From assembly GCF_900156285.1 (NCBI RefSeq), contig NZ_FTNC01000001.1:1-64000 (forward strand): DNA of 64,000 nt. Direction: 5' to 3'. Position 1 is the first letter of the stretch. The number at the start of each line of letters is the position of its first letter. The position numbers and the translations under genes are program-made. Positions 10,087 to 40,282 of this stretch are shown in pieces. The stretch comes from Halanaerobium kushneri (GTDB taxonomy: Bacteria; Bacillota; Halanaerobiia; Halanaerobiales; Halanaerobiaceae). The notes below the pieces were generated by a model, which saw nothing but the letters and a program-made list of their open reading frames with translations, was not told the DNA's origin and searched no databases.

Positions 10087-10113
10087 CAATTTCATAGCAA
10101 AAAAGGTGATTTG

Positions 10114-10950
10114 ATGTTAAAAGATTTAAGTTTAGAAACAGTACTCAATAATTTAACAATGGGAATAGCAATTTTAGATGAAGAAAGAGATTTTGTCTAT
10201 ATCAATGATTTAACAACCAGGATAACTGGTTATTCACTTTCTGATATAACTAATCTGGAGCAGTGGTTTGAAGCAGCTTTTCCTGATCCTGTTGAGAGGG
10301 GAAAAATTTATTCAGATTTTAAAGGAAAACTGGCAAATGGAGAACACTATAACCGGGTTTCTGAAATCATGACTAAATCAGGAGAGAAGAAATTTGTTGA
10401 ATTTAGAGTAAATCCAATTGAAAAAGATTACTTATTAATAAATTTGGTTGATGTCAGCAGAAGAATAGAGAGGGAAAAAGAAATTAAATATTTATCCTAT
10501 CATGATGAACTGACTGATTTGTATAATCGTCGTTATTTTGAAGAAGAAATGGAACGTCTGGATGATTCACGTCTTTACCCAATCAGTATTATAATTGGAG
10601 ATCTGGATAATTTAAAAGCAGTTAATGATAATTATGGACATCTGCTTGGTGACGAATATCTTCGTAAAGCGGCTCAAATTTTAAAAGAACTGCTGCGGTC
10701 TGAAGATGTTGTTGCCAGAATAGGTGGGGATGAGTTTGCAATTTTGCTTTCGGAAACCGATAAAAAAGCAGCTGCTCATATTTGTGAGCGAATTAAAGCA
10801 GAATTTAATCAATACAATAATGCTGACAGTTTTCCAATTGAATTCAAAATCTCTCTGGGCTGTGCCACTGCCCGAAAAAAAACTAAAAAACTAACAGATA
10901 TTTATAATCAGGCTGATAAAAATATGTATAAAAATAAGGGTAGAAGATAA
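10114..10950 (+). CDS. PAS-GGDEF diguanylate cyclase
   Basis: Starts at ATG 10114 after AAAGGTG; a TTG three bases earlier is too close to the ribosome site. The 278-residue protein has a PAS domain (about 1-115, with FVYINDLTTRITGYS) and a GGDEF domain beginning DELTDLYNRRYFEEE. The catalytic GGDEF is intact and RSED stands five residues before it, giving an RxxD inhibitory site. There are no membrane helices, so this should be a soluble sensor that makes c-di-GMP. It lies 24 bases after the SbcC-like gene and may be cotranscribed with it. Its end faces the minus-strand RNA described at 10984-11306. Confidence 0.9.
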   Translation: MLKDLSLETVLNNLTMGIAILDEERDFVYINDLTTRITGYSLSDITNLEQWFEAAFPDPVERGKIYSDFKGKLANGEHYNRVSEIMTKSGEKKFVEFRVNPIEKDYLLINLVDVSRRIEREKEIKYLSYHDELTDLYNRRYFEEEMERLDDSRLYPISIIIGDLDNLKAVNDNYGHLLGDEYLRKAAQILKELLRSEDVVARIGGDEFAILLSETDKKAAAHICERIKAEFNQYNNADSFPIEFKISLGCATARKKTKKLTDIYNQADKNMYKNKGRR

Positions 10951-10983
10951 AATTTGGATAAAAAAATTTAAAAAATTAGACAT

Positions 10984-11306
10984 AAAAAAATCAAGGTTCT
11001 GACGAATCTTCTTCGATTGCCTGTTTACAGTTGATTTTTTTACTTTTCTTATTTTTTCTTATTATTTTTGATTTAGTCCTCCATTACTATCTTTGATTTG
11101 CTCAAAGATCATTATTAAAGAAGGCTATCCCTTAATAATTTCTTTTTGCTTACCATTAATAGTAACTTCTTCGGAATTGATCTTAATTAACTTTGATCAA
11201 TCTCAATCAACAATCTTACTTCTAAATCTCAAATAATTTTACTTAAATAAGAATTTCAAAATACCACTTATAAACATTTAATCTTAGGACTTCCTCAGAA
11301 CCTTGT
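10984..11306 (-). ncRNA. Candidate structured non-coding RNA, about 320 nt
   Basis: On the minus strand a TTGATT-17-TATAAT promoter would start transcription near 11306. The first 12 bases of the product include CAAGGTTCTGA (11305-11295), which is fully complementary to TCAGAACCTTG (11002-10992) at the far end, directly followed by A and seven T. Inside this closing helix are nested pairings: AGTCCT with AGGACT (closing most of the molecule), ATTGATC with GATCAAT, GTTACTAT with ATAGTAAT, ATTATTAA with TTAATAAT, and ATCTTTGA with TCAAAGAT around a GCAAA loop. An A-rich linker precedes the 3' hairpins. There is no protein-coding frame of useful length. I could not match it to RNase P RNA, tmRNA, SRP RNA or 6S RNA. 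Confidence 0.65.
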
Positions 11307-11312
11307 AACTAT

Positions 11313-11341
11313 ATTATAGTCCTCTAAGTCAAAAAAATCAA
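11313..11341 (-). promoter_or_regulatory. Promoter of the structured RNA
   Basis: The -35 TTGATT (11341-11336) and -10 TATAAT (11318-11313) are separated by 17 bases on the minus strand. The expected start, about seven bases past the -10, coincides with the beginning of the closing helix of the RNA. Confidence 0.65.
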
Positions 11342-11488
11342 AGTCGAAATTTGTCGATTAAAATAAAATATCGTTAAATATCTTCTGTTTTTAAGCAGAA
11401 ACTAAATATCCCATCAATTTTCAGAATACAGGTTCAATTCAAACTACTTTTTAGCCTTATTGTTTTTAAAGCTTAATATGGGAATGAC

Positions 11489-11517
11489 TTGATAATCTGC
11501 AGTTCTACCTGTATTAT
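11489..11517 (+). promoter_or_regulatory. Promoter of the racemase gene
   Basis: TTGATA (11489-11494), a 17-base spacer and TATTAT (11512-11517) precede the GGAGGTAGGG ribosome site and ATG at 11569. It points away from the minus-strand RNA promoter. Confidence 0.6.
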
Positions 11518-11568
11518 TTACATTAAGAAAGATAAAAAAACGAAATCTTTACTACAGGAGGTAGGGAA

Positions 11569-12261
11569 ATGAAAACAATTGGATTAATTGGCGGTATGAG
11601 CTGGGAGTCTACAGTTGACTATTATAAGATATTAAATCAAGAAGTAAAAAATAGCTTAGGTAATCCACATTCTGCTGAAATAATTATGCATTCAGTCGAT
11701 TTTGCAGAAATTGAAAGGCTGCAGGAATTGGGGGACTGGAATAAATTAACTGAAAAGATGATAAAAATCGCCAGAGAATTGGAACAAGCACGAGCAGATA
11801 TGATTTTAATTTGTGCTAACACAATGCATCAAATGGCACCTGCGGTTGAGGCTGAATTGGAAATTCCTCTGCTTCATATAGCTGATGCTGCTGCAGAAAA
11901 AATAAAAGCAGATAATTTAAAAAAAGTTGGTCTGCTGGGAACTAAATATACTATGGAAGCTGATTTTTATAAAAATAGAATAGAAAAAAATTATGGGATT
12001 GAGGTTATAATTCCAGAATCAGATGATCGAAGTTATATCCACCAGGCTATCTATCAGGAATTAGTTGCTGGTATCTTAAAGACTGAAACTAGGGAAAAAT
12101 TTAAGGGAATAATTGATAATCTTAAAATTCATGGTGCCGAGGGAGTAATTCTGGGTTGTACTGAAATTCCAATGTTAATTAAAGCAGAAGACAGTGTTTT
12201 GCCTGTTTATAATACAACTGAATTACATGCCAAAAAGGCAGTAGAACTGGCACTGAATTAA
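11569..12261 (+). CDS. Aspartate/glutamate racemase family protein
   Basis: A 230-residue cofactor-independent amino acid racemase. The N-terminal GLIGGMSWESTVDYYK and the two catalytic-type cysteines, in CANTMH (about residue 83) and LGCTEIPML (about residue 193), define the aspartate racemase / YgeA group. Such enzymes interconvert L- and D-amino acids; YgeA-type members have broad substrates, so naming aspartate would be too exact. The gene has its own promoter and a strong ribosome site, and is followed 80 bases later by the HD-domain gene. Confidence 0.9.
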   Translation: MKTIGLIGGMSWESTVDYYKILNQEVKNSLGNPHSAEIIMHSVDFAEIERLQELGDWNKLTEKMIKIARELEQARADMILICANTMHQMAPAVEAELEIPLLHIADAAAEKIKADNLKKVGLLGTKYTMEADFYKNRIEKNYGIEVIIPESDDRSYIHQAIYQELVAGILKTETREKFKGIIDNLKIHGAEGVILGCTEIPMLIKAEDSVLPVYNTTELHAKKAVELALN

Positions 12262-39908: not shown

Positions 39909-40154
39909 TTATTTAATTTTTTTTAACTGACCTGGAGGTAAATTACTTTCATCTGTATCATTTTCTTTGGGATCTCCAGGTGGTTGAGGATCAATACCAT
40001 TTCCAATTCCATTATTCCCTTTGTCTTTGGAAGGTGGTTCTGGTTCTTCAGGATCATCAGGAGGATTGACAACAACAGCCAGAGCGGTTAAAGTGATACT
40101 AAAGATTAGAACTAAAATCAAAAAAACTGCCAGCACACGATTCCAATTTTTCAT
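39909..40154 (-). CDS. Small secreted Pro/Asp-rich protein under GEMM-I riboswitch control
   Basis: An 81-residue protein with a signal peptide or N-terminal membrane anchor (WNRVLAVFLILVLIFSITLTA) and then an unstructured, Pro-, Asp- and Asn-rich tail with GIGNGIDPQPPGDPKEN and the basic end LKKIK. The tail recalls small secreted proteins with NGIGNGxDPQPPG repeats of unknown role. Its ribosome site AAGGAGGT is six bases before the ATG and belongs to the switching region of the riboswitch upstream. A cell-surface or matrix role under second-messenger control is inference. Confidence 0.8.
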   Translation of the reverse strand: MKNWNRVLAVFLILVLIFSITLTALAVVVNPPDDPEEPEPPSKDKGNNGIGNGIDPQPPGDPKENDTDESNLPPGQLKKIK

Positions 40155-40160
40155 GAGCTT

Positions 40161-40282
40161 ACCTCCTTTTAAAAGACCTTACTCCAGGGAGGAGATCTGG
40201 CAGCCTGGCGGCCCTGAATGGGTCCATGGCTTTGCGCCGCATTTTTACAAATGCTTAGCTATTTTTGCTTCTCCTTAATTAT
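40161..40282 (-). promoter_or_regulatory. GEMM-I (cyclic dinucleotide, c-di-GMP-I class) riboswitch
   Basis: The aptamer spans about 40190-40275 on the minus strand. It shows GCTAA, a hairpin GCATTT-GTAA-AAATGC with a GNRA tetraloop, then the core GCGCAAAGCC, a short third stem, and GGCCGCCAGGCTGCC matching the GEMM-I pattern at its 3' side. The outer stem pairs AGGAGA (40275-40270) with TCTCCT (40195-40190). The same TCTCCT/CTCC segment can instead pair with the ribosome site AAGGAGGT (40168-40161). Ligand binding should stabilise the outer stem and free the ribosome site, so an ON switch for translation is predicted. In my alignment the base matching the guanine-contacting G20 of the Vc2 aptamer is A. 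Confidence 0.82.

Follow-up and report, generated by a model that had tools for sequence, protein, structure and literature searches.

The window analysed here comprises 64,000 nucleotides of the Halanaerobium kushneri genome (contig NZ_FTNC01000001.1, positions 1 to 64,000), and all coordinates refer to it unless another locus is named. Between a PAS-GGDEF gene (10111-10950, plus strand; Pfam GGDEF at 2.7e-41, and PAS_3) and an Asp/Glu racemase gene (11569-12261, plus strand) lies a gap of 618 bases (10951-11568), in which the ORF list contains no gene-sized open reading frame, as the initial annotation of this DNA had stated. A predicted RNA gene occupies the minus strand of this gap (10984-11306), with a transcript of about 320 nt from an A at 11306 to a U run. 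All the elements on which the initial annotation had based a new structured RNA gene are present: the -35 box TTGATT (11336-11341) and, 17 nt from it, the -10 box TATAAT (11313-11318), both on the minus strand, a predicted start at ~11306 that is 7 nt past TATAAT, the sequence CAAGGTTCTGA (11305-11295) that is perfectly complementary to TCAGAACCTTG (11002-10992) about 300 bases further on, and one A plus seven T (10991-10984) directly behind TCAGAACCTTG. In the transcript the complementary segments would form a closing helix, H1, with CAAGGUUCUGA as its 5' strand (11295-11305) and UCAGAACCUUG as its 3' strand (10992-11002), followed by the U run (10984-10990). Since the U run sits directly behind H1, this helix probably also serves as the stem of the terminator. 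The G+C content of the RNA gene is 26%, versus 32% for the window.

Homologs were searched with blastn in 41 related genomes and with two sequence-only models (R1 and R2) in 38 genomes of Halanaerobiales. We identified 18 copies, 17 of them full-length, in 13 of the 38 Halanaerobiales genomes, including single copies in G000-G005, G008, G009, G013 (Halanaerobium sp. MA284_MarDTE_T2) and G014, three copies each in G006 and G010 (Halanaerobium polyolivorans) and two in G032 (a Halanaerobiaceae MAG); the G002 copy runs into a contig end and is incomplete. The 17 full-length copies can be aligned over their entire length, and full copies share the -10 box (TATAAT or close to it in every copy with this stretch), the paired 5' and 3' ends (11 of 11 H1 positions paired in all 17) and a T-rich run directly behind that helix. 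The TTG of the -35 box is also conserved, with TTGCTT, TTGCGT and TTGACT as variants in other copies. The conservation profile of copies from different loci showed that similarity begins at the -10 box or the start, stops just past the U run and is at background level outside, which implies that the conserved thing is a promoter together with an RNA and a terminator. Orthologs at the window's own locus (L003-L008) also have a direct repeat of the form TCGAC-N5-TCGAC, or nearly so, upstream of the -35 box (window 11340-11360, minus strand); it is not kept at other loci and might be the site of a regulator.

The RNA gene was not found by blastn, R1 or R2 in G007 (a single contig), G011 and G012, and its absence from some relatives implies that it is not essential. 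Among the other families of the order, R1 and R2 detected no copies except those in G014 and G032, a search that more diverged copies could escape. Weaker R2-type matches (E 0.006-0.05; G002, G007, G029, G030, G036 and G039) were partial and were left out of the count, and one R2 match in G020 was rejected as coding sequence. When the closing-helix pattern was searched in 84,980 species, it was present only in Halanaerobium/Halanaerobiaceae plus one match in Ruegeria, which looks accidental (GC-rich and with no rod). The same pattern had two matches in viral contigs, both inside a coding gene and attributed to chance. The RNA was found neither in plasmid records nor in phage records, the latter giving only 36-base matches in an unrelated gene.

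Such patchy presence, up to three copies per genome and the perfect 11-bp complementarity of the ends would also be expected of a small MITE-type mobile element that has CAAGGTTCTGA and TCAGAACCTTG as its terminal inverted repeats. However, most of the genus has one RNA copy per genome in a syntenic place, the window's own genome has one copy only, and conservation exceeds the repeats, taking in the -10 box on the upstream side and the U run on the downstream side. Considering also the internal compensatory changes and the wobble bias to one strand described below, a MITE is extremely improbable. Genes for CoA-binding, DUF975 and TraB proteins (the window members identified by Pfam, the others recognised by sequence) recur near the RNA in G002, G006, G010, G013 and G014, which argues for vertical descent as part of an inherited block of the chromosome. 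Judged from these comparisons, the predicted RNA gene is vertically inherited within the order.

The minus strand is predicted to fold with a minimum free energy of -90.0 kcal/mol (z = -8.8; none of 100 shuffles was as good), and the plus strand yields a less stable fold (-65.7, z = -7.1). Similar z values were obtained for the copies of G014 (-8.3) and G032b (-9.2). The initial annotation had considered the agreement of promoter, start, closing helix and U run hard to get by chance. The folding z score and the occurrence of the unit in 17 other places bear this out, whereas the promoter alone is at chance level (13 promoter-like sites found versus 11.6 +/- 3.1 expected).

RNAalifold on a plain sequence-only alignment of 15 copies gave a single long rod of 84 pairs, 24 of which have changes on both sides. 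Among the 82 rod pairs counted, 97.7% of the cells are paired, a percentage that leans towards the fold because this alignment also served to derive it; the count of two-sided changes is the stronger measure. These amounted to 24 pairs versus 8.9 +/- 2.1 in shuffles and 58 cells versus 15.7 +/- 3.6, and none of 500 shuffles reached any of these measures. In slid controls, where the partner was moved by 1-3 columns, 40-51% of the cells were paired and 1-5 pairs changed. The compensatory changes that the initial annotation had proposed to look for in homologs were thus found, and in all parts of the rod. Rod pairs contain 100 G-U cells and 9 A-C cells, an excess which implies that the RNA is the minus strand. 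Both G032 copies lay outside the 15-copy alignment; folded alone, they also form a rod of this kind, at -84 and -96 kcal/mol.

Individual parts of the rod, all on the minus strand, differ in how they vary. H1 shows compensatory changes in G014 and G032b, and in a hand-anchored comparison the closing helix of G032 is replaced as a block by CAAGGUUCCAG/UUGGAACCUUG. The 5' strand of H3, UGUUUA (11271-11276, partner 11022-11027), has two-sided changes in several copies, and hand anchoring gave UGACCA/UGGUCA in G032a and UGUUCU/AGGACA in G032b. Covariation also supports H6 and H7 (5' strands within 11222-11237, partners 11061-11066 and 11070-11076), with four of the six H6 pairs changed on both sides, as well as the terminal arm H8-H9 (11083-11166), where this applies to 10 of 31 pairs. 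A variable extra arm (11173-11215) is absent or short in the aligned copies at other loci. At the junction, GGAGGA (11077-11082) is unpaired in the consensus; its candidacy as an anti-Shine-Dalgarno element was dropped, as it is not kept in G014.

The consensus rod revises part of the helices first proposed. Two of the five inner helices, GTTACTAT/ATAGTAAT and ATTATTAA/TTAATAAT, are conserved and correspond to H8 and H9, but the other three did not stand in the same way: ATTGATC/GATCAAT lies inside the variable arm and is confined to copies at the window's own locus; AGTCCT/AGGACT and the conserved H7 compete with each other, and the former is disrupted in G014 and in one copy pair of G006/G010; the hairpin ATCTTTGA-GCAAA-TCAAAGAT is not retained in distant copies and conflicts with H9. 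What had been described as an A-rich linker is actually the paired 3' strand of H4-H6.

The best-kept inner feature of the rod is a module in which, on both strands, GAAA stands before H5 and AAGUAA behind it, namely GAAA-UUCUUAUUU-AAGUAA at 11239-11257 and GAAA-AAAUAAGAA-AAGUAA at 11040-11058 (minus strand). The 18-nt pattern GAAA-N10-AGUA is present on both strands of nearly every copy, with single-base deviations in L005 (G001), G013 and G032b. In family-level relatives GAAA/AGUAA is kept while H5 changes from UCUUAUU/AAUAAGA to CACUGUU/AACAGUG. AGUA opposite GAA is a signature of the bulged-G (loop E, sarcin-ricin) motif, and we infer that the GAAA...AGUAA pairs may form two inverted motifs of this type around H5.

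This segment overlaps a short frame (11277-11239), open in most copies, which would encode a 12-residue peptide (MFISGILKFLFK here), so that a dual-function RNA analogous to staphylococcal RNAIII might be imagined. However, the start codon is replaced by TTG or CTG, the frame is interrupted in G013 and not retained in G032, positions 1 and 2 of codon 3 vary while position 3 is fixed, and the region in question is base-paired and contains the inner module. A coding function of this kind is very unlikely.

Between H3 and H4 there is an inner loop of ~9 by 10-12 nt. This loop, a strong consensus promoter and the presence of several copies per genome could suggest a 6S-like RNA resembling an open promoter and bound by RNA polymerase, as a second and longer one beside the true 6S RNA. 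Ms1 in mycobacteria is a precedent for a longer polymerase-binding RNA. Nevertheless, the canonical 6S RNA is encoded elsewhere in the same genomes, the 6S model (RF00013) has no match here, and G032a has almost no inner loop, which together leave such a function unlikely.

The genes next to the RNA differ between loci. Besides the PAS-GGDEF and racemase genes of the window, neighbors were carB-like and PAS-GGDEF genes (G006/G010), a nitroreductase-like gene (G006c), a FeoB-like gene (G014) and an RND pump (G032b), which implies that the RNA is not a leader belonging to a single gene. None of the genes is found with every copy, and no ORF is shared among the aligned copies. The PAS domain family has only one to three members per genome, yet a member lies directly beside the RNA in six genomes (G000, G003, G004, G009, G006 and G010) and 1.8-4 kb away at two loci (in G013 and at the third G006 copy). 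One could therefore regard the RNA as a cis element of the PAS-GGDEF gene, as an antisense RNA, a 3' end regulator or a shared two-way terminator controlling c-di-GMP synthesis. On the other hand, no PAS-GGDEF gene adjoins the RNA in G001, G002, G005, G008, G014 or at either G032 copy, G007 and G011 have retained the gene but not the RNA, and the block of CoA-binding, DUF975 and TraB genes indicates an old neighborhood instead. We regard control in cis as quite improbable, and the link between the RNA and PAS-GGDEF looks positional from the gene orders compared.

Several additional arrangements were observed at these loci. Two direct RNA copies flank one PAS-GGDEF gene of 832-842 aa in G006 (L036, 7927-11262) and G010 (L035, 8000-11367), and in both genomes the third copy is elsewhere. 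In G004 the PAS-GGDEF gene next to the RNA is truncated, and in G001, G005 and G008 the same locus lacks it (G004:C31, 12232-12396; L032, 9750-10268); the RNA is intact in all of them. G007 keeps the SbcD-SbcC-GGDEF order of the window, and both the RNA and the racemase gene are gone. Elsewhere in the window, a c-di-GMP-I riboswitch (RF01051, 53.3 bits) is located at 40196-40270 on the minus strand, just upstream of a minus-strand ORF (39909-40154) of 81 aa with a signal-peptide-like start and a Pro/Asp-rich sequence.

Comparison with known RNA classes was negative at each level. At gathering threshold no Rfam family was present at the RNA gene; with E values up to 10 the region gave only two matches, far below the gathering scores and not credible, and the distant copies with E values up to 2 gave only a neighboring tRNA. 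The minus strand thus matches no family even at lax thresholds. The previous view that RNase P RNA, tmRNA and 6S RNA do not fit is upheld, and the true genes are located elsewhere in the same genome. Like the RNA described here, 6S RNA is a rod-like, single-gene transcript with paired ends, but it is ~180 nt long and has its own locus (C21:148798-148971). tmRNA (RF00023) and RNase P RNA (RF00010) are of similar length, but they also have their own loci (C45:52536-52892 and C21:126560-126923, respectively); neither RF00023, the model of tmRNA with its tRNA-like domain and tag frame, nor RF00010 has a match here. RNase P RNA contains a loosely similar GAGGAAAGUCC.

The initial reading, that this is a new structured RNA gene equipped with a promoter, a closing helix and a terminator of its own, is supported by compensatory changes along the whole rod, the edges of conservation, the strand bias of wobble pairs, homologs in other families and the lack of an Rfam match; no decayed gene was recognised in the region. 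That a structured RNA gene is present is almost certain from the comparative sequence data. The best explanation of the whole, to which we assign a probability of about 0.6, is a stand-alone rod-shaped non-coding RNA of ~320 nt that acts in trans via its inner module. It would be transcribed, probably constitutively, from ~11306 to a length of ~320 nt (~280 nt in most other copies) and fold into one long interrupted rod with paired 5' and 3' ends, and the closing helix plus the U run would end transcription. Such a blunt-ended rod may be stable and abundant, its paired ends protecting the RNA. In trans it could hold or sequester a protein, or a second RNA copy, at the inner module; a mode of action as protein scaffold or decoy has, in our opinion, about an even chance. 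A more speculative and rather doubtful extension is that the palindromic double loop E module is the core of a new RNA class, which would hold a symmetric protein dimer or pair two rods, in a stress or signalling RNP of halophilic anaerobes that in part of the lineage is possibly linked to a PAS-GGDEF enzyme of c-di-GMP.

Bacteria have few large structured RNAs with genes of their own, and those whose function was solved have opened fields. Our literature search revealed neither a mention of a Halanaerobium RNA of this sort nor RNA-seq data, and the main text of three structured-RNA surveys does not name Halanaerobium. Two of these surveys select long, G+C-rich gaps (PMC11109978, PMC8632094). 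Surveys based on such a choice would miss this RNA because it is A+T-rich, which suggests that part of the RNAs of this kind encoded in A+T-rich genomes has so far escaped notice. As the RNA is small, occurs in cultured Halanaerobium and is missing from some close relatives, experimental tests could be easily planned.

The closest comparison is with the large orphan bacterial RNAs OLE, ROOL and GOLLD, which have 577, about 659 and over 800 nt, respectively, and elaborate folds; OLE forms an RNA dimer with long co-axial helices, and ROOL and GOLLD occur in phages and prophages near tRNA islands (PMC12286853). The RNA described here differs from all three in its size (280-330 nt), its single rod and the lack of any Rfam match, and from ROOL and GOLLD in occurring in no phage or plasmid record. 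Like them, it is stand-alone, large, highly structured and patchily distributed among related bacteria, and its function is obscure. It has a fold supported by covariation, a predicted promoter and terminator and no fixed downstream gene, as is general for large stand-alone structured non-coding RNAs of bacteria, and on these comparisons the predicted RNA is a new family of the large orphan bacterial kind.
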